Under the pieces are notes generated by a model that was given only the letters and a program-made list of their open reading frames with translations, made no database searches and was not told the DNA's origin. The translations under genes were made by a program, and so were the position numbers. A stretch of DNA of 64,000 nucleotides from an uncultured delta proteobacterium (GTDB taxonomy: Bacteria; Myxococcota; Myxococcia; Myxococcales; 40CM-4-68-19): assembly GCA_903911145.1 (NCBI GenBank), contig CAIWCD010000013.1, forward strand, positions 1 through 64,000, in the 5' to 3' direction. How positions within the stretch are numbered: the first letter of the stretch is position 1; each line of letters begins with the position of its first letter. Below, one piece after another: positions 3,124-41,312 of the stretch.

Positions 3124-5298
3124 CTAGTTGAATGTCTGAGAGTCGCGCACGGCCGCCTGCATGACGGTGGGTAGATCGATGATCAATGCCACCGAGCCGT
3201 CGCCGAGGATGGTCGCGCCGGAGAAGCCCTTCACGTCCCGATAGGCGCTGCCGAGCGTCTTGATCACGGTCTGGTGCTGGCCAATCACGTGATCGATCAC
3301 CACCCCGAATCGGTTACCGCCAGCGTGCGCAATCGCGATCTGCTCAATGGGTGGACGGTCGCCTGGAACATCAAACCAGTCGCGCAGGCGGACGTAGGGA
3401 ATCAGCTCGCCGCGCACAGACGCCAGTTGGTTGCCATTTGCCCTGGTGACGTCTTCGCGCGTGATCTCCACGCACTCCTCGACCAGCGACATCGGAAGCA
3501 CATAGGAGGCGTCGCCCACTGACACAAGCAGCCCCTCGATGATGGCCAGAGTCAGCGGCAGCTTGAGCCGCACTGTCACTCCCGCACCGGGCGCGCTCTC
3601 GAGTTCAATGGTTCCGCGAAGGGCGTCGACCGAGCGCTTGACGACATCCAGACCAACTCCGCGACCAGAAAGGTTGGAGACCTGGGCGGCGGTGGAGAAG
3701 CCAGGAAGGAAGATCAGGTTGAACAGTTCACTCTCCGCAAGGCGCGCATCGGGCTCGATCAGTCCGCGGCTCAATGCCTTGGCGCGGATCGCAGCAGCGT
3801 CGAGGCCGCGTCCGTCATCGCGGATCTCGACCACCACGCTCGGCCCCGATTGGTAGGAAGAGAGGCTGACGGTTGCGCGCGGGGTCTTGCCTGCGGCTGC
3901 GCGACCGGCCGGCGACTCGATGCCGTGGTCGCAGCTGTTGCGGATGAGATGAACCAGCGGATCCCCGAGCCGATCGATCACCGTCTTATCCAACTCGGTC
4001 TCTGCGCCCTCGGTGACCAACTCGATCTCCTTGCCCAGCTCAGAGGAGAGATCCCGAACGAGCCGCTTGAAGCGCGAGAAGGTGGTGCCGATCGGAACCA
4101 TCCGGATGTTGAGCGTGTTGTCGCGCAGCGAAGTCGAGAGCCGCTCCAGCACCTCTGCAATCGAACTGAGCTCGACGTCGTCGTGGCGAGAGGCGATCTG
4201 GTTGAGCCTCGCCTGCGCGATCACCATCTCGCCGACCAGATCGACGAGCACATCAAGCTTGTCCGCGGGCACGCGGATGCTCGACGCCTCGTCGGTGCGG
4301 CCCGGTTCGCGCCTGGCACGTGCGTCGCGCACGACCATCTGTTCCGTCGCGGCCGCAGCCACCACCTCCGGCGCGACCGCTCCCTGTGCGATCAGGACGG
4401 CGCCAAGATTCTTCTGGGCAGCGAGCGCCGCACGCAGTTGGTCGGCAGTCACCTCACCGCGATCCAGAAGGATCTCGCCCAGCTTCTTGTAACTGGCGTC
4501 ACCTTCGATGCCATCATCGTCGAGCAACTCGACGCGCAGCTCCCCGCGCCCTTCGACGAAGATGAACACATCGTGGATCGCGTCGGCTCCGCGGTTGGTG
4601 GTGAGCACGACGTCCCACGAGAGGTAGCAGGACTCCGCGTCGAACTGCTCGAGCGACGGCAACTCTTGACGATGTGCGATCACCTGGCAGGGGCCGAGCG
4701 CGCGCAACTCGGCCAGCAGCGACATCGGGTTGGTTCCGTCGCGGAGCAGATCGCGCGGCGGGACGAATCGCACGCGGAAGGTCTTCGTTCCTCCAGCAGG
4801 AGATTCGCGCTCCAATGTCTGTGCCGGCGGCGCTGAGGGGGGCGGCGAGACCGGGTCCTGCCGCGGAACCGAAGGCCCCGCAGCCACTGGCGCCGCGCTT
4901 TTCTGCGCAGGAGGTTTTGCTGCCGGTCCCAAGAAGGAAGCGAGCGCGAGAGTGATCGCCTCGCGCTCGGCCGCGACGGACGGCCCCGCGCCGTCGAGCA
5001 TGGCGCGGATGACATCCTTGGCCCGCAGGCCCAGCCCGATCAGTGCCGGTGTGATCTTCTCGGTTCCGTTGCGAACCCGGTCGAACACCGTCTCGAGCCC
5101 ATGGGTGAACGCGGCGACCTCGTCGAAGCCGAACATCGAGCCGGAGCCCTTGATGGTGTGCATCGCGCGGAAGGCGCTGCCGATCAGCTCCGCGTCGCCA
5201 GGGTTCTCTTCCAGCTCAAGCAGCGCGGCCTCGAGTTCAGCAAGACGCTCAGCAGCCTCCTCGCGAAACGAGGATTCAAAATCTTTCGTGCGGTCCAT
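3124..5298 (-). CDS. cheA: Chemotaxis histidine kinase CheA (hybrid with MshEN-like insert)
   Basis: This histidine kinase would pass phosphate to the response regulator encoded just upstream. The start at 5298 (MDRTKDFESS) is chosen because AGGAG lies 6 bases before it and the preceding gene ends at 5307. The order along 724 residues is: Hpt domain with phospho-accepting His47 (MHTIKGSGSMF); Pro/Ala-rich linker at about 125-185; a docking-like domain at about 190-270; an MshEN/GspE-N-like helical module at about 270-335 (KLGEILLDRGEVTADQLRAAL); the dimerisation helices; the ATPase with N-box HLIRNSCDHGIESP, DDGRGLD and GRGVGLDVVK; and a C-terminal CheW-like domain. An MshEN-like module in CheA is uncommon. 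In type II secretion and pilus ATPases this fold can bind cyclic-di-GMP, so a second-messenger input is possible but not shown. Confidence 0.95.
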   Translation of the reverse strand: MDRTKDFESSFREEAAERLAELEAALLELEENPGDAELIGSAFRAMHTIKGSGSMFGFDEVAAFTHGLETVFDRVRNGTEKITPALIGLGLRAKDVIRAMLDGAGPSVAAEREAITLALASFLGPAAKPPAQKSAAPVAAGPSVPRQDPVSPPPSAPPAQTLERESPAGGTKTFRVRFVPPRDLLRDGTNPMSLLAELRALGPCQVIAHRQELPSLEQFDAESCYLSWDVVLTTNRGADAIHDVFIFVEGRGELRVELLDDDGIEGDASYKKLGEILLDRGEVTADQLRAALAAQKNLGAVLIAQGAVAPEVVAAAATEQMVVRDARARREPGRTDEASSIRVPADKLDVLVDLVGEMVIAQARLNQIASRHDDVELSSIAEVLERLSTSLRDNTLNIRMVPIGTTFSRFKRLVRDLSSELGKEIELVTEGAETELDKTVIDRLGDPLVHLIRNSCDHGIESPAGRAAAGKTPRATVSLSSYQSGPSVVVEIRDDGRGLDAAAIRAKALSRGLIEPDARLAESELFNLIFLPGFSTAAQVSNLSGRGVGLDVVKRSVDALRGTIELESAPGAGVTVRLKLPLTLAIIEGLLVSVGDASYVLPMSLVEECVEITREDVTRANGNQLASVRGELIPYVRLRDWFDVPGDRPPIEQIAIAHAGGNRFGVVIDHVIGQHQTVIKTLGSAYRDVKGFSGATILGDGSVALIIDLPTVMQAAVRDSQTFN

Positions 5299-33440: not shown

Positions 33441-34811
33441 GTGACCACCCATCGCGACGATAAGACCGACCCGCGTTACCGACCGCCCGCGCACGACGAC
33501 ACCGATCCCGGCCAGACCGCCGTCCCGCGCGGCCGGGTGAATACACGGCCGGTCGCTCGTTTCTATCCCGCCAATCCGCGCACGCTCGAGGATACCGGCC
33601 TCACGTCGTCTCAGATTGAAGCGAGCATCCTCAAGGCGCTCTTCTTCGTCACGGAGATGCGGGGCATCGACCTCGCCCGGCACCTTCGCCTGCCCACGCA
33701 GATCATCGAGCCGATGCTCGAGCAGCTGCGCCGGTTGAAACTGATTGATATCCGCGGCGGCAGCGGCCAGGGGTTCGGCCTCTCGACCATGATCTATGCA
33801 CTCGGCACGCTCGCGCAGGAGCCGCTCAAGCAGATCTTCGATCACGATCGCTATAACGGACCAGCGCCCGTGCCCTATCACGACTGGGTCACTGCGGTGC
33901 GCGCCCAGAGCATTCGCGGCGTGCGCGTGACCCACGATATGCTCAGCGAGAGACTCGGAGGAATGCATTTCCCCGATGAGCTGATCGATGGACTCGGGCC
34001 GGCCATCAACTCCGGCCGCTCGGTCTTTCTCCACGGCCCCTCGGGCAACGGCAAGACCTCGCTCTGCCGCCGCATCGCAAACTGCTATTCCTGGGATATC
34101 TACGTTCCATATGCGGTTGATATCGATGGATATGTCGTCAAGGTCTACGACGAGATGATCCATCGGCAGGTCACTGCGCGAGAAGGCGACCCGGCCACGG
34201 ACGAGCGATGGGTCCGCTGCCGTCGCCCGCTGGTGGTGGTGGGCGGCGAGCTGACGATGGATATGCTCGATATGGCCTATTCACCCGAAATGAAATTCTA
34301 TGAGGCGCCGCTGCAGATGAAGGCCTCCAACGGCGTGCTGCTCATCGACGATCTCGGCCGCCAACGGATTACCCCGCGCGAGTTGCTTAATCGCTGGATA
34401 TTCCCGCTGGAGAACGACGTTGATTATCTCAAGCTCGACGCCGGCAAGCGGTTCGCGATCCCCTTTGACGCCTTCCTCGTGTTCTCGACCAACCTCGATC
34501 CGAAAGAGTTGGTCGACGACGCGTTCCTCCGCCGCGTCCGCTACAAGATCAAGCTCGATGCGCCGCCCGTGCAGGTCTACAAGGAGATCTTCCGCGAGCA
34601 GTGCGAGCAGCGCGGCCTCGCGTATCTCGACGCGGAGATCGATACCTTCATCCGCTTCATGAACGAGAGCGCGCGACCGCTCGCAGCCTGCCAGCCCCGC
34701 GATCTCATCGATCAGATCAACGACCACGCCTTCTATCGCGGCGAGCGCCCGGCGGTGACGGCGGAGACGCTCTCGCGCGCAGCGCAGACCTACTTCGCCC
34801 AGTTCAAATAG
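33441..34811 (+). CDS. AAA family ATPase with N-terminal winged-helix-like region
   Basis: 456 residues from GTG 33441. The ATPase core has Walker A GPSGNGKTSLCRRI, Walker B GVLLIDDLGRQ, a sensor-1-like stretch FSTNLDPKEL, and an arginine-rich segment FLRRVRYKI. The N-terminal ~130 residues have helices and a winged-helix look (RLPTQIIEPMLEQLRRLKLIDI). There is no transmembrane segment. The family is widespread in deltaproteobacteria and planctomycetes, but its substrate is not known to me. The gene starts 14 bases after the Old Yellow Enzyme stop and ends 8 bases from the convergent gene. Confidence 0.8.
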   Translation: MTTHRDDKTDPRYRPPAHDDTDPGQTAVPRGRVNTRPVARFYPANPRTLEDTGLTSSQIEASILKALFFVTEMRGIDLARHLRLPTQIIEPMLEQLRRLKLIDIRGGSGQGFGLSTMIYALGTLAQEPLKQIFDHDRYNGPAPVPYHDWVTAVRAQSIRGVRVTHDMLSERLGGMHFPDELIDGLGPAINSGRSVFLHGPSGNGKTSLCRRIANCYSWDIYVPYAVDIDGYVVKVYDEMIHRQVTAREGDPATDERWVRCRRPLVVVGGELTMDMLDMAYSPEMKFYEAPLQMKASNGVLLIDDLGRQRITPRELLNRWIFPLENDVDYLKLDAGKRFAIPFDAFLVFSTNLDPKELVDDAFLRRVRYKIKLDAPPVQVYKEIFREQCEQRGLAYLDAEIDTFIRFMNESARPLAACQPRDLIDQINDHAFYRGERPAVTAETLSRAAQTYFAQFK

Positions 34812-34819
34812 CGAGCGCG

Positions 34820-35395
34820 TCAGCGCCGGCGCGGAGGCTTGACGTCCTGCCCATAGCCGAGAGGAAAGTTTCCCGGCGCCTCCGGGTGCAGATCGAATCT
34901 CGCGTGCAGCCAGTCGAGCACGCACTGGGTCACCGCACCTTCGATCTGCAGTTCGCTCACCTCTCCGCCAATCGTGCGCACGTCGGTCTCGGGGCAGGGG
35001 CCAGTCACGAGACGAGAACTCGGCGCGCGCTCGACACGTAGCAACGCGGGACCGAGAAGGGCCAACGACGGCTCCTCCAGTTGCGCACGCTGAAGCGAAA
35101 TGAATGACGGTTCATTCTGCCCAACCACAACTGGAGGAAGGCGAGCCGCCAGCCGCTTGATCCTGCGCAGCAGCGCGGCATCGCGCGGAGTCAGTGGCGG
35201 CACGATCTCGACAGTGACCAGCGCGGGCCAGCGCATCAGCGCCTCGACGGCCGAATCGGAGATCGCATTCCCGTTTCCCAGCGAGACGGCCAGGCGCGTC
35301 TGCTCGGCGTACTTCTCAAGCGGACGCAACTGCCCGCGCGCCGCCGCGTCATGCGAGACGACGAGCAGCAACTGGGCGGCAAGCAGCGCGAGCAT
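34820..35395 (-). CDS. Small secreted hypothetical protein, last gene of the envelope set
   Basis: 191 residues from 35395 (MLALLAAQLLLVVSHDAAAR). There is an N-terminal hydrophobic signal segment, then a mixed domain with TVEIVPPLTPRDAALLRRIK and a pair of cysteines (GPCPE ... AVTQCVLDW) that could form a disulfide. No family is recognised. It lies 22 bases downstream of the FecR gene on the same strand, so it is likely in the same operon. Confidence 0.65.
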   Translation of the reverse strand: MLALLAAQLLLVVSHDAAARGQLRPLEKYAEQTRLAVSLGNGNAISDSAVEALMRWPALVTVEIVPPLTPRDAALLRRIKRLAARLPPVVVGQNEPSFISLQRAQLEEPSLALLGPALLRVERAPSSRLVTGPCPETDVRTIGGEVSELQIEGAVTQCVLDWLHARFDLHPEAPGNFPLGYGQDVKPPRRR

Positions 35396-35417
35396 ATCGA
35401 TTCAACCTATCGAGCCA

Positions 35418-36188
35418 TCACTTCGCGTCGCGCTCCTGGTTCCACTTCGACCAGTTGTCGCTCTGCTCATCAGCCGCACTGAACGAAGACGGCTCGCCCG
35501 GCACGCCTTTGGACGAGACCGCGATCTCCATCTGCGCGCCGACCAGCTTCTCCCAGGCCGCGCGCGAGACCTCGTCAGGGCCCGCCACTTCGCGCCGCTC
35601 ACTCTTGCCGCCCTTGCTCGGGTTCTTCAGATCCGCGGCATAGATCGGGATCGGCTTGGCAACCGCGACCGCGCCCGCATAGACGCGCACGAGCACGCTC
35701 TGGTCTGCATGCGCATCGACGCGGAAGGTCGTCCCGCGCACGCCCGCGACGGCATTCTCCGTCTCGATGGCAAAGCGCTGATCTCCACTGACGGCCGACG
35801 TGACCTTCGCCCAGATGTTCCCGAAGAAGAGCTTGACGCTCAGCTTGCGCGTCTGCTCACCGGGCGAGAACTGCGCCTCGGTCAGCGCGATCTTCGCGCT
35901 CGGGCCAATGCGGATCACGCTCTTGTCGTCGAGCTTCAATTCGAGTCGGGACCGCAACTCCGTCGCGATCAGGTCGCCCTGCGAAAGTTCATCGCCAACC
36001 TTCAGCGGCCCCTCGACCGCGGCGCCGACCTCGGTGCGCGATGCCTTCCCCTCAAGAAATGTCACCTGCGCGGCGTGCGGCGGCTTCTTCGCAAGCTGCA
36101 GCGTGGCCAGCGGAGAGGCGAGCACGGCCCCAGCAACCAGAGCGAGACAACCCGCGCCCAGTGCGGTCCAGATGTGATTTCGCGTCAT
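35418..36188 (-). CDS. FecR-domain envelope protein
   Basis: 256 residues. A signal or anchor helix at about residues 7-25 (IWTALGAGCLALVAGAVL) is followed by a FecR/LysM-like beta domain (VTFLEGKASRTEVG; VGDELSQGDLIATELRSRLEL; VAGVRGTTFRVDA). FecR domains bind peptidoglycan or signal through the envelope. The start overlaps the stop of the PEGA gene (ATGA, 36185-36188), so translation is coupled. There is no sigma/anti-sigma gene beside it, so a structural role in the wall is more likely than signalling. Confidence 0.85.
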   Translation of the reverse strand: MTRNHIWTALGAGCLALVAGAVLASPLATLQLAKKPPHAAQVTFLEGKASRTEVGAAVEGPLKVGDELSQGDLIATELRSRLELKLDDKSVIRIGPSAKIALTEAQFSPGEQTRKLSVKLFFGNIWAKVTSAVSGDQRFAIETENAVAGVRGTTFRVDAHADQSVLVRVYAGAVAVAKPIPIYAADLKNPSKGGKSERREVAGPDEVSRAAWEKLVGAQMEIAVSSKGVPGEPSSFSAADEQSDNWSKWNQERDAK

Positions 36189-36538
36189 GGTGCATCCCCT
36201 TGCGGAGCGCCCTGGCCCGAGGCCGAGAGAGCGATCGTGAGTGTCAGATTGTCCTGCGCCCCGACCATGATCGATCGGGTCGCGATGCTGCCGTTGCCGC
36301 GCAGCACCAGTCGATGTTCGCCCGCGGAAAGAAGGAGCCGATGGGGTCCCGCATAGTCACCCACTGCGCCGTAGGGAACTCCATCGACGGTCAACTCGGC
36401 GTCAGGCGCATCACAGTGCAGTTCAACCTTCGCGCGCCCGAGCGCAGCACCACCCGGACCAGCGCAGGCCGCAAGCGCACCAGACGCGAGCATCACCGTA
36501 CCCGGACCGTGCCAGCGCTCGCGCAGCGGGTGACGCAT
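36185..36538 (-). CDS. Small lipoprotein with one PEGA-like domain
   Basis: 117 residues. The start 36538 gives a signal peptide ending in lipobox LAAC (MLASGALAAC). A single PEGA-type unit follows (AELTVDGVPYGAVGDYAGPHRLLLSAGEHRLVL). A start at the internal Met, 36493, would give a shorter signal. It lies between the FlgT-like gene (13 bases away) and the FecR gene (overlapping). Confidence 0.75.
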   Translation of the reverse strand: MRHPLRERWHGPGTVMLASGALAACAGPGGAALGRAKVELHCDAPDAELTVDGVPYGAVGDYAGPHRLLLSAGEHRLVLRGNGSIATRSIMVGAQDNLTLTIALSASGQGAPQGDAP

Positions 36539-36550
36539 CGGCCGCGCGCT

Positions 36551-37807
36551 CTACTTTCCCAGTTCGACAGAGACGGTGTTCGCTGTGATGCCCTTCACCT
36601 TCAGCGAAAACTTGCCCAGCTTCTTCGCCTCGAGCTCCTGTCCGAAATCATCCGTCGAGCCGACCACCGTGACGTCAAACTCTGCGACACCGTCGCTGAA
36701 GCCGCGCGACTCAACGCCCTTCACGCCACGCACGAAGTTGATCAGGCCGCTCTTGAACTCGCCTGCCTGCTTGAGCGAGTCGACGTGTTTGACCGTCACA
36801 TGCACCGCAGTGCCGCCCGACACATCGCTCGACCATCGCTCGGCGATCTTCTGCGTGATCTCGGCAGCGAAGATCTTCGCCACAAGGTGGATGGCATCCT
36901 TGCCGCACGTCAGATCGTCGATCTGGCCACCCGCCTGCTTGGTCACCTCCGCGGTCGCGAGAATTTCTCCGTTGTCGGTGTTCACCGCGCGCGCGCTGAA
37001 GGTCGCCGCGCACGAACGATAGCCATCAGGCGTCCAATCGCTCTTGATCTCGCCCCGCGCAGTGGCGATCACCTGCCCGATGATGATCACCTCGGCGTGC
37101 GTGAGCGAGCCAAGCTTGCGGGCCTGGGCTGCAGTGATGCTGGTGGTGATGCCGCCAACGCTCGCCGCTTTCGTCTCCGCAATCTCCGGATCAATGAGCT
37201 GCTTGAAGCCCGCCTTACGCAGCTCATCAAGCACCACATTTTCACCGATGCGCAGATCCGCAGAGACGACCGTGCTCTCGTGCGTCATCCACGACGCGGC
37301 AGGCGCGGCCATCCCGATGTTCTGCTCAGCGATGAGCAGCATCGTGCGAGGCATGCCCTTGCGCTGCATCAAGAGGCCCATCGCCGCGAGATCCTTGTCG
37401 AGCGCGCCAATGCTCACTTCTGCGCGGATGGTGATCTGCACGACGTCGCCGTCCATCGCTTCCTTCGTGATGCTGTACTTGCGTACGTAGCCGGCAGACT
37501 GGGTCAGCACCTGATCCATCTTCGTCTGGAAATCCTGCACGTCGGTCGTGCTGGTGACCTGCGTGCCGACCGCCATCTGCACGGCCTGGCGAAGCGCGTC
37601 CTGAATCGCCTTCTCGCGCGCGGCCGCTTTGTCCCCAGCGAGCACGGAGGCCTGCCCCTGCGCCTCCTGGATCTGCGTCTGCGCAGCAGCGGTCGCGGGG
37701 GCGCTGTCAGCAGGCGCATCGGCGCGAGCGGCCGGTACCGTAAAGAGTGCGGCGAGTGAAGTGAGCGAGAGGATCGCAGCGGCGAGGGCCTGGATGTGCG
37801 TGCGCAT
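36551..37807 (-). CDS. FlgT-like envelope protein
   Basis: 418 residues from ATG 37807 with GGAG upstream, beginning with a signal peptide (ALAAAILSLTSLAALFTVPAARA). The first domain (AAREKAIQDALRQAVQMAVGT, then AGYVRKYSITKEAMDGDVV) is typical of the FlgT N-terminal/LPP20-type fold. The middle has a nucleotide-free Rossmann-like pattern (TMLLIAEQNIG; ADLRIGENVVLDELRKAG; AEVIIIGQVIA) as in FlgT-M/CsgG-like domains. In Vibrio, FlgT forms the H-ring of the sheathed polar flagellum. No flagellar gene is present here, so it may belong to another outer-membrane assembly. Confidence 0.8.
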   Translation of the reverse strand: MRTHIQALAAAILSLTSLAALFTVPAARADAPADSAPATAAAQTQIQEAQGQASVLAGDKAAAREKAIQDALRQAVQMAVGTQVTSTTDVQDFQTKMDQVLTQSAGYVRKYSITKEAMDGDVVQITIRAEVSIGALDKDLAAMGLLMQRKGMPRTMLLIAEQNIGMAAPAASWMTHESTVVSADLRIGENVVLDELRKAGFKQLIDPEIAETKAASVGGITTSITAAQARKLGSLTHAEVIIIGQVIATARGEIKSDWTPDGYRSCAATFSARAVNTDNGEILATAEVTKQAGGQIDDLTCGKDAIHLVAKIFAAEITQKIAERWSSDVSGGTAVHVTVKHVDSLKQAGEFKSGLINFVRGVKGVESRGFSDGVAEFDVTVVGSTDDFGQELEAKKLGKFSLKVKGITANTVSVELGK

Positions 37808-37843
37808 GACGGGCGTTCTCCGGTTCAAGTCGAGTGCGAAAAG

Positions 37844-38698
37844 TCAGTTGGCGCGCGGATGCAGATGCGCGCGAAGCTCAGGCGGGAGCTGATCGATCGG
37901 CAGCTCGACATCGAGCGCAACGCCGCCATCAGAGTAATAGTGTACTTTTGACACGAAGTATCCGCGCAGCGCTCCATCGACCTTCGTGCGCAGCGCAGGA
38001 TCGGCCTCGAGCATCTTGCCAACCTCCGCGTCGCCCGACGAGAGCGCCGCGAGCAGAACCTTGAGCGCGTCGAGGCGCGCGGCCCGTTCAGCCCCGATGC
38101 GCGCGACCGCGATCGACGCGGCATTGAGATCAGGTACACCTTGCCCGCGCGCCTGCACGACGATCTTCGCGCCACGCTCGACAATCGCTGGAGGCTGCTT
38201 CGCCTGCGCGGGGCTCCTGCTCTTCTCCTCAGACGCAGCAGGAAGGGACGCGGGGCCTGGCGCCGCGTCCGCAACTCCAGCCGGCGCGCTCGGCAGTTTC
38301 GCGATCAACGCCGCAGGCAGCTTGTCGAGATCGACCTCGACATCGAGCGCGACGCCGCCGTCCGAATAGTAGTGCGGCGAAACGATGCGAAAGCCGCGCA
38401 GCGTCCCCTCGACCTGCGCGCGCAGTCCATTGTCGCTCTGCAGCAGCGTGCCGAGCTTGTCGCCACTCGCGAGCGAAACACCTTTGAGCGTCTCGAGCAG
38501 ATTGCGAAACGCGTCGGCCTTCGCCGCCTTCTCCGCACCGAGCCGCGCAGCAGAGACTGAGGGCGCATTGAGATCGGGCGCGCCCTGGCCGTGCGCCTTG
38601 ATCGTCCGGTGCTGCCAATCAATCTCCCCCGTCGATTCAGCGCGCAGAAGCGACGGCGACAGACAGATCAGCGCGACCACAAAAATACGGCCAATCAT
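37844..38698 (-). CDS. LPP20-like secreted protein with an internal duplication
   Basis: 284 residues from ATG 38698 (MIGRIFVVALICLSPSLL) with GGGGAG upstream. After the signal peptide, the same unit appears twice, at about residues 33-130 and 180-275: GQGAPDLNAPSVSAARLGAE ... KADAFRNLLETL ... HYYSDGGVALDVEVDLDKLP and GQGVPDLNAASIAVARIGAE ... LDALKVLLAAL ... HYYSDGGVALDVELPIDQLP. A Pro/Ala-rich linker separates them. It resembles LPP20/FlgP-type envelope proteins. It lies 36 bases upstream of the FlgT-like gene. Confidence 0.78.
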   Translation of the reverse strand: MIGRIFVVALICLSPSLLRAESTGEIDWQHRTIKAHGQGAPDLNAPSVSAARLGAEKAAKADAFRNLLETLKGVSLASGDKLGTLLQSDNGLRAQVEGTLRGFRIVSPHYYSDGGVALDVEVDLDKLPAALIAKLPSAPAGVADAAPGPASLPAASEEKSRSPAQAKQPPAIVERGAKIVVQARGQGVPDLNAASIAVARIGAERAARLDALKVLLAALSSGDAEVGKMLEADPALRTKVDGALRGYFVSKVHYYSDGGVALDVELPIDQLPPELRAHLHPRAN

Positions 38699-38814
38699 TC
38701 GGACTCCCCTTGGCTGCACCAGTTCCCTGCCCCCCATCTACACCACGAACGCCGCGAGCGGGTCTGTGCGCTCGCTCACGTTTCGCGTCCGGCAATACCA
38801 TTGACTCACGAGCG

Positions 38815-40062
38815 CTAGAAAGCCCAGCCAATCCCGCCGACCGCCACCAACTCGAGATTGCCCTGGCGGATCAGTCCATCGACCTCCAGCCGGAACGTCA
38901 GGCCACGCCAAGGCTGTACAAGCAGTCCGCCGCCAAAGTCCGCGACGGGCTGCGTTCCGCTCGAGGAGAGCGACGATGCGGCCGCGTTCACATCCTGCAG
39001 GACCAACTGCGTCTGTTCGATCACGAGGCCCCCGCCACCACCAGCGAAGAGCGACACGGGTCCGAGAGGGAGCACGCCGAAGAGACGCGCGTCGAAGAGC
39101 AGATGTGAAGCCGATGCGCTCGCGTAGGCATTCCCGCTGCTGCCGCTCGAGCGCAGGCCGCGGACGTCGAGCTGGAGCCAGCGCACGATCGCGACGCTGA
39201 AGGAAAGGCCGTACGTCGCCTGCCATTCGCGGCTCTGCCCATCCGAGGGCATCTTCGCCCAGGCTCCGCCTAGCCCCAACAGCGTGAAGCGCCGGACCGA
39301 GGCGCGTTCGGTCGGCTGCTCATCGCTCTGGGAACGGACGTGCTGCTCTTCATCGATCGCAAGCACGTGGCTCTGCGAGCCTTGCTGGGAGCGGCTCAGC
39401 GCGATCGGAGCGGGCGGCGGACTCTCCTGCCGGCGTCGCTCTGGTTGCTCGATCACACCATCGTTGTCGGGATCGATGGTCGCCGCCTTGGGCACGACGA
39501 CGGGATTGGGCGCGCGGCGAGGAGGCTCCGCGGGTTGCTCCGGAAGAGAATCGATGGCAGGCGCGTCACGGGATGGCGCAAGTGGAGCGATCGGCGCGGC
39601 CCGCTGCGGCGGCGGACGTTCGGGCTCGATGTGCGGCAGCGGCGGCAGCGCTTCGTAGTGATGCTTCGTTGCCTTCTTCGCGGGGGGCGCCGACTCGCGC
39701 TCGACCTCGTGCTCCTCCTGCTGTGGAGCCACTTGCGGTGCGCTTTTCCGCTTCCGCTTCGAGACCCGACTCGGGGCCTCATCGCTCGATTCATCGCGGT
39801 TCGTCTCGGCGCGCTTCCTCGTCTTCGTCTGGTGCCACGGCCGCGAAGGCTCATCCGATTGCGTCTCTGCACGCTTCTTCGTCGCTGGCTTGTGCGTCGG
39901 CGTCGAAGGCTCCTCCGATGCGCCGCTCTTCGACGGCGCATCCGGAATCCAGAACGGAGTCGGCTCTTCCTGCGCAAGCAACATGCGCGGAGCCGCCACC
40001 AGCACGGAGATGAGCACGATCGCGCCTGTGAGCGACCGACGAATTCCAGGACGGGGAGTCAC
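38815..40062 (-). CDS. Outer-membrane beta-barrel protein with long disordered region
   Basis: 415 residues. A signal peptide (TGAIVLISVLVAAPRMLLAQ) is followed by about 215 residues rich in Pro, Glu, Ser, Lys and Arg. The C-terminal ~160 residues show alternating strands (FTLLGLGGAWAKM; YGLSFSVAIVRWLQLDVRGL; LELVAVGGIGWAF) ending in Phe, as in outer-membrane barrels. The start overlaps the stop of the preceding lipoprotein gene (ATGA, 40059-40062). The disordered part could span the periplasm and contact the wall. Confidence 0.75.
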   Translation of the reverse strand: MTPRPGIRRSLTGAIVLISVLVAAPRMLLAQEEPTPFWIPDAPSKSGASEEPSTPTHKPATKKRAETQSDEPSRPWHQTKTRKRAETNRDESSDEAPSRVSKRKRKSAPQVAPQQEEHEVERESAPPAKKATKHHYEALPPLPHIEPERPPPQRAAPIAPLAPSRDAPAIDSLPEQPAEPPRRAPNPVVVPKAATIDPDNDGVIEQPERRRQESPPPAPIALSRSQQGSQSHVLAIDEEQHVRSQSDEQPTERASVRRFTLLGLGGAWAKMPSDGQSREWQATYGLSFSVAIVRWLQLDVRGLRSSGSSGNAYASASASHLLFDARLFGVLPLGPVSLFAGGGGGLVIEQTQLVLQDVNAAASSLSSSGTQPVADFGGGLLVQPWRGLTFRLEVDGLIRQGNLELVAVGGIGWAF

Positions 40063-41312
40063 TGGCAGCTCTGAGTGGGCGCGTTGATGCCGATCAAATT
40101 GCAGCTCGGCAGATCGGTCACCGAGAGCGACTTGAAGCGGTCGAGAAAATCTCCGCAGAGCGTCCCCTGCTGATCGCTCGACGTTGCCGATACGACCGCG
40201 TCGAGTGCAGCGGCGAGGTCGAGCTTGTTGCCATTGTCACTCTGGGCTGCGGCGACTCCGGAGAGCGACGCGAGCAGGCCTGTGGCCACCGCAGTTGAAT
40301 CTCCACTCTGCGCGGCGTCCCAGAGCGAATAGGCGAGCACGGTGCCAAGCGGATACGGATCGTAGGGCACCACACTGTCGGGAACATCGAGCGCCTGCAG
40401 CATCGCGCTGGTGCCGCAGCGAAGCTGATCGAGCGCTCGCGCGCCTGCCGTCTGCTGCAGCGAGTGATCGAACCAGCGCGGATCCTGCGTGATGATCGCG
40501 CCGAGGAAATCGGCGATGCCCATCCGCACAGACTGCGCGACGTGAATCGCAGTCAGCGCGCCCGGGTCATCCGGTGACACAGCGGTCGCCGGATCGACTG
40601 GGGCGCCAGACCAGATGACCTGCTGGTAGGCCTGCAGGCCGACCGCGTGCGCGACCGCGCCGAGATTCAGCTGCGGAGGCAACTGCTGCTGCGCGGTGAC
40701 CGGCGGAAGAAAGAACGCGTTGAGCGGCGCGAGGAAGAGTTCGCCGTCGCCGAGCGGCGACAGTCCGTTCCCGTCACGCACATTCGTGTGGGCGAATATC
40801 GGAGACGCAGAGAGATTGGTGAAGCCGAACCCCGCCAGTTGCGCGCGCGTCTTCTCCAGCGCGGCATAGAACGAGAGCAACTCGAGTGCGTCGTAATCCT
40901 CGGGGTAGATGAGGCCGTTGGCGGTATTGAACTCGATCGTCACTGGACCGGGAATGCCGGTGAACGATTGCGCGCGCAGCGACGAAACGGTCGCGCCCTG
41001 GGCGCTCACGCGCTGCGCAGAGAGAACGACAGAACCGCCAGCCTCGACGTTGCCGGAAGTTCCCTGCAGCGTCCGCAGACTCGTGACCGTGCGCAGAGGT
41101 ACTTGCGCCAGCTTGTAGACCTGCGTGCCAGGGTCCCACGCAATCACCACCGCGGAGAACGGCGAAGCCTGATCCGGTGCACAAGCGATGAGCGGCAGCG
41201 CAATCGAAGAGAGGCAGCACAGCGCCAGCGCGAGGCGCGAACTCAAACCGCGAGGTCGGGATGGCAACATGAGATGCGATTGAGCGAGCCTCATCGCGGC
41301 GCAGGCTAACAC
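40059..41312 (-). CDS. Lipoprotein of unknown function, first gene of the envelope set
   Basis: 417 residues. GTG 41312 is preferred because AGAGGAG lies six bases upstream; the internal Met codons at 41294 and 41270 have no ribosome site. A hydrophobic segment ends in PLIAC, a good lipobox. The mature part is mixed alpha/beta without a recognised domain and contains three cysteines in its C-terminal half. The downstream barrel gene overlaps it by four bases, so it is the leader of a run of seven genes on this strand. Confidence 0.75.
   Translation of the reverse strand: MLACAAMRLAQSHLMLPSRPRGLSSRLALALCCLSSIALPLIACAPDQASPFSAVVIAWDPGTQVYKLAQVPLRTVTSLRTLQGTSGNVEAGGSVVLSAQRVSAQGATVSSLRAQSFTGIPGPVTIEFNTANGLIYPEDYDALELLSFYAALEKTRAQLAGFGFTNLSASPIFAHTNVRDGNGLSPLGDGELFLAPLNAFFLPPVTAQQQLPPQLNLGAVAHAVGLQAYQQVIWSGAPVDPATAVSPDDPGALTAIHVAQSVRMGIADFLGAIITQDPRWFDHSLQQTAGARALDQLRCGTSAMLQALDVPDSVVPYDPYPLGTVLAYSLWDAAQSGDSTAVATGLLASLSGVAAAQSDNGNKLDLAAALDAVVSATSSDQQGTLCGDFLDRFKSLSVTDLPSCNLIGINAPTQSCQ

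Follow-up and report, generated by a model that had tools for sequence, protein, structure and literature searches.

The window analysed here comprises positions 1 to 64,000 of contig CAIWCD010000013.1 (assembly GCA_903911145.1), from an uncultured member of the Myxococcales. At 34820-41312 it carries an operon of seven open reading frames (ORFs), all on the minus strand and lettered A to G from the upstream end, separated by -4, 77, 15, 12, -4 and 22 bases, respectively. The original prediction had described seven minus-strand genes with two ATGA overlaps and otherwise short gaps, and this layout is correct except for one overlap: that at 36185-36188 is ATGA, and that at 40059-40062 is GTGA because the start codon of gene B is GTG. 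The genes rplQ-rpoA-rpsD, identified from their translated sequences, lie upstream of gene A, and the named relatives matched by the operon proteins are myxobacterial. Promoter and terminator scans of the operon found nothing. Four of the genes, C, D, E and F, are inherited as a set, for the most part in genomes that lack flagellar marker genes. The operon probably makes a separate envelope structure, apparently unstudied, since this core stays together across many relatives, the majority of them without a flagellum.

FlgP and FlgT, familiar as accessories of flagellar motors, build rings around some bacterial flagella. Gene D (36551-37807, with an ORF that could extend to 37828) encodes a homologue of the ring protein FlgT in which all three FlgT-like regions are present: FlgT_N, a middle domain resembling CsgG, PelC and GNA1162, and a C-terminal domain. 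In agreement with the FlgT-like protein first described, D is recognised by Pfam FlgT_N (2.5e-12; 47.6 bits, above the cut-off of 28.8 bits); the Pfam sequence models FlgT_M and FlgT_C gave no match in D. The profile of D matches FlgP and FlgT, and weakly FlgO and CsgG. A fold search with the AlphaFold2 model of D (predicted local distance difference test score, pLDDT, 86.9) placed the Vibrio LPHT ring first (8z5n; 9.7e-11). Vibrio FlgT (3w1e; E 5.3e-10) aligned with the model end to end over 417-418 alignment columns, which gives D the three-domain architecture of FlgT, and further matches were, in order, CsgG, the FlgP of 9hmf, dodecameric PelC and GNA1162. Over their full length these alignments have low template modelling scores (TM-scores, about 0.3), and we take this to reflect differing domain orientations. 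The model has two strands at residues 83-103 (37499-37561), a predicted hairpin that separates the SHS2 helix from the second strand of SHS2. An SHS2 hairpin inserted at that position is reported to correlate with ring formation in the family (PMC12222027), and the modelling supports such an insert for D; for C the ungapped profile alignment and the helical model point different ways.

Known relatives of D set its features in context. It has FlgT_N and the end-to-end fold in common with the H-ring FlgT of Vibrio, but differs from it in the missing FlgT_M and FlgT_C matches, in having no linkage to flagellar genes, and in occurring mostly in genomes without FlgI. Its middle region has the fold of the outer-membrane lipoproteins CsgG, GNA1162 and PelC; unlike these, D shows no lipobox and carries added FlgP-like and C-terminal domains, and genes for CsgG and GNA1162, present in fuller versions of the cluster, are absent from the window operon. 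The Leptospira LipL46 model was also matched along the length of D, at 3.9e-19, far under its curated cut-off.

Gene C (37844-38698, extendable to 38737) encodes, on the evidence of profile comparison, a homologue of the ring protein FlgP. The duplicated LPP20-like protein of the original prediction is a true tandem duplication of an LPP20/FlgP-like (SHS2) domain, with the first copy at approximately 38327-38608, the second at approximately 37874-38167, and 51-52% identity between them. Against Pfam LPP20 the window protein scores 14.7-14.9 bits, under the 25.9-bit cut-off, and 23 of the 33 aligned members of its family match the model. The family profile matches FlgP of Campylobacter jejuni (9hmf; E 2e-15) and of Vibrio (8z5n; E 2.6e-9), with no gaps across the hairpin-forming region of FlgP, and 9hmf, the deposited Campylobacter periplasmic scaffold (PMC12222027), was also on top in a fold search with the model of C (pLDDT 79; probability 1.00). 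Most relatives of C have one LPP20 domain followed by a second, C-terminal domain common to Treponema pallidum Tp0624, and this canonical form aligns with Tp0624 (5jir) at E 3.9e-6. Tp0624 has an extra OmpA-like domain, and the shared C-terminal domain is missing from the window protein. The tandem duplication of window C and the additional C-terminal domain of canonical C both set these proteins apart from FlgP.

The remaining core genes were correctly described as encoding a PEGA lipoprotein and a FecR protein. Gene E (36185-36538) has a lipobox (LAAC, found by eye), and PEGA is matched by 11 of the 15 members of its family, with no match in the window protein itself. Gene F (35418-36188) encodes a secreted protein that matches FecR at 1.6e-16; it is LipL45-like, matching Leptospira LipL45 at 5.8e-17, a score far under the curated cut-off.

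Relatives were compared by tblastn, gene calls and profile searches over 81 non-redundant loci. The conserved core is C-D-F, usually with E, and it ranges across Myxococcota and into Desulfobacterota-type genomes, the latter label being taken from record titles (Desulfobacterales, Syntrophaceae, Deltaproteobacteria) and not from a tree. The order C-D-F is found in 60 loci: in 54 as separate genes on the same strand, and in six (L031, L032, L034, L035, L036 and L037) as a C-D fusion, a single ORF of 529-542 residues, followed by F. The other loci have at least one member missing, some of them owing to contig ends. Every examined locus with all three genes has them on one strand, and no mixed-strand arrangement was seen. 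Such recurrence of the order, without exception on a single strand, shows that the genes are not grouped by chance. A joint alignment of fusion, C and D rows seemed to put the C domains on FlgT_N, and was left out of the structure prediction.

Fuller clusters add further genes to this core. Loci with Desulfobacterales, Syntrophaceae or Deltaproteobacteria titles have the order C, TPR/SLH lipoprotein, D, GNA1162, CsgG, PEGA, F, and the Myxococcales record SURF_8 has C, D, GNA1162-like, CsgG-like, PEGA-like, F; Pfam assignments in these clusters come from one locus (L104), the others being assigned by resemblance. Downstream, 27 of 52 informative loci, the Syntrophaceae one among them, have a threonyl-tRNA synthetase gene (thrS) on the same strand, which suggests that the locus has long been inherited vertically. 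In three loci (L040, L041 and L045) the stretch from F to thrS repeatedly holds an AI-2E family transporter gene and members of a family of unknown secreted proteins (cluster cl16).

Upstream of the core, genes for PilZ and MshEN, two types of domain that bind cyclic di-GMP (c-di-GMP), are frequent neighbours. Of 97 loci, some of them counted twice as named and unnamed records, 44 have a PilZ gene on the same strand no more than 2 kb away; most Myxococcaceae belong here, and in Pyxidicoccus fallax DSM 14698 and Corallococcus sicarius the order is PilZ-C-D-F. Several other loci have an MshEN gene in this place. Neither type was found beside the window operon, which has come to lie next to rplQ, and the strongest match to MshEN in the window genome reaches only 35% identity over part of the protein. 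In Myxococcus xanthus the upstream neighbour may be the PilZ gene MXAN_3585, which, among 24 PilZ deletion mutants, is not one of those reported to have motility or development defects (PMC8316039).

Genes A, B and G adjoin the core in close relatives only. The seven-gene unit of the original prediction is upheld for C-D-(E)-F, with PilZ or MshEN, CsgG, GNA1162 and TPR/SLH genes as its other partners in relatives, and fails for A, B and G, which are lineage-specific. Gene A (40059-41312) encodes a lipoprotein (lipobox LIAC, found by eye) of a metallopeptidase-like family whose profile weakly matches M36-type metalloproteinases (0.022). Most family members have the motif HEYxH and, downstream of it, DEGxAD; window A has a degenerate site, with HAVGL (approximately 40635-40649) and MGIAD, and so does not have the HEXXH zinc site of the Peptidase M36-like class. 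Three operon-linked relatives (L031, L035 and L038) have HALGH, with the HEXXH site likewise lost, and we read the operon copies of A, from these motifs, as putatively dead catalytically. Homologues of A occur in 109 of 195 Myxococcota genomes, mostly away from the operon core. Gene B (38815-40062), found only in close relatives, encodes a signal peptide, about 215 low-complexity residues rich in P/E/K/R/S/Q, and a short barrel-like C-terminal domain, in agreement with the barrel and disordered region first described. Gene G (34820-35395) encodes a small secreted protein without known family and has relatives in two nearby genomes. In the one of the same genus (L030) an opposite-strand gene (3830-4447) parts F from G, so that the link of G to the operon is a loose one. 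By eye G had been likened to a Myxococcaceae downstream gene; comparison gave no support. Convergent with the operon, a plus-strand gene at 33441-34811 encodes an ATPase-like protein with weak AAA-family matches; it matches the model of the anti-phage ATPase IteA at E 5e-6, far under the model cut-off.

The operon had been thought to occur without a flagellum. The host genome does have a full flagellar cluster, with FlgI and FliM, which was read gene by gene; it is on contig C14, separate from the operon contig. No flagellar genes were noted around the operon, and no homologues of C, D or F in the flagellar region read. One half of what was to refute the original idea, flagellar genes in the same genome, therefore applies, although nothing indicates that the flagellum needs these proteins. 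Across the 195 Myxococcota genomes, in which D was counted from full or near-full matches and FlgI by a separate search, 34 have both D and FlgI, 60 D without FlgI, 15 FlgI without D, and 86 neither. With FlgI absent from 60 of the 94 D-positive genomes, and with no flagellar linkage seen, D does not class with FlgT as a member of a flagellar system. Within the family of the window genome, FlgI and FliM are confined to its own genus; D-positive genomes of the other genera have neither, and retain D at 57-69% identity. Three genomes of another genus (g15) show the reverse, with FlgI and no D. The operon does not depend on a flagellum, since D is kept in family members without FlgI and FliM and the host flagellar region has no homologue of C, D or F.

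Our preferred reading, which we give about an even chance of being right, is that the core C-D-E-F forms a flagellum-independent, outer-membrane-associated periplasmic scaffold shaped as a ring or disk. D would oligomerise into a ring through its SHS2 hairpin, and C would widen the ring into a disk by packing with D, a pairing suggested by the C-D fusions that occur naturally. E, together with A in the window lineage, may tether this scaffold to a membrane, and F may join it to the wall, with the help of the SLH protein in the Desulfobacterota-type versions. The PilZ or MshEN genes upstream in many relatives suggest that the structure would be built or used under c-di-GMP control, and the CsgG and GNA1162 genes of the fuller clusters hint that it surrounds a pore for export or strengthens a patch of outer membrane. 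The earlier proposal that ring-forming parts were reused for an envelope assembly stands as regards the FlgP and FlgT homology and the conserved, mostly flagellum-less core; for the ring assembly itself, we infer it from this homology and from the predicted hairpin, in models of monomers. Reuse of ring parts outside the flagellum, or their origin there, is credible because the core occurs mostly in genomes without flagella.

Several observations weigh against this scaffold. The fold match between the C model and 9hmf has a root-mean-square deviation of 9.1 Å and an E of 0.016. In this model the segment aligned to the FlgP hairpin is mostly helical, and the same stretch is shorter by a few residues in the second repeat. 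No lipobox was seen by eye in window C, unlike in lipidated FlgP. C can persist without the full set: in several Myxococcus and Corallococcus loci (L086, L089, L091, L098 and L116) it is found with a PilZ gene and no D or F, L086 having a PEGA-like gene as well. Finally, the association of D with FlgI over the phylum is positive (odds ratio 3.2, p 0.0009, uncorrected for phylogeny), so that the operon may have a flagellar role in some lineages.

The alternative that survives best, although we consider it a minority possibility, is that C, D, E and F make up a dispersed network of lipoproteins and periplasmic proteins, with no ring, which stabilises the outer membrane and wall. The PEGA lipoprotein, the FecR protein and the SLH/TPR partner of the fuller clusters would suit such a tether. 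Canonical C aligns with Tp0624, a proposed envelope stabiliser (PMC5104382), and in Helicobacter a FlgP-linked lipoprotein maintains the barrier function of the outer membrane (PMC11756786). The whole-length match of D to solved ring proteins, together with its predicted hairpin insert, argues for a ring instead, and the C-D fusion suggests an assembly of fixed stoichiometry. Less probable, and in our judgement unlikely, is a periplasmic collar for a CsgG- or PelC-like outer-membrane pore exporting protein or polysaccharide under c-di-GMP control. The resemblance of the middle region of D to CsgG, PelC and GNA1162, the CsgG and GNA1162 genes in the Desulfobacterota-type clusters and SURF_8, and the PilZ and MshEN neighbours all favour it; however, the window operon has neither a CsgG gene nor a substrate gene, the three CsgG-family matches of the host genome are on other contigs, and no gene for a curli-like substrate was noticed in the loci that were read. 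An accessory of the flagellum, equivalent to an H-ring or basal disk, used in the window genus and relictual elsewhere, is highly improbable. The host flagellar cluster has no C or D homologues of its own, and D is positively associated with FlgI across the phylum; but most D-positive genomes have no FlgI, the D-positive genomes of the same family outside the genus retain D without FlgI and FliM, the operon and the flagellar genes are on separate contigs, and the g15 genomes have FlgI without D. An unrelated cluster of genes ranks low, given the conserved order and the C-D fusions.

Returning to the periplasmic ring or disk scaffold, a broader version of it would make the locus an old, c-di-GMP-linked envelope machine of Myxococcota and Desulfobacterota, in which parts of the FlgP, FlgT and FlgO/CsgG types worked together without a flagellum and which later supplied polar flagella with their accessory rings; we regard this as speculative and rather doubtful. 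Among open-licence papers no published description of the operon was found. The analysis gives a name to an apparently unstudied envelope assembly of myxobacteria, and its upstream neighbours in relatives tie the operon to c-di-GMP signalling. That a widespread operon combines FlgP-like and FlgT-like proteins with a PEGA lipoprotein and a FecR protein, independently of the flagellum, suggests a broader envelope job for ring parts, and the operon offers a concrete place for asking about the origin of flagellar accessory rings.

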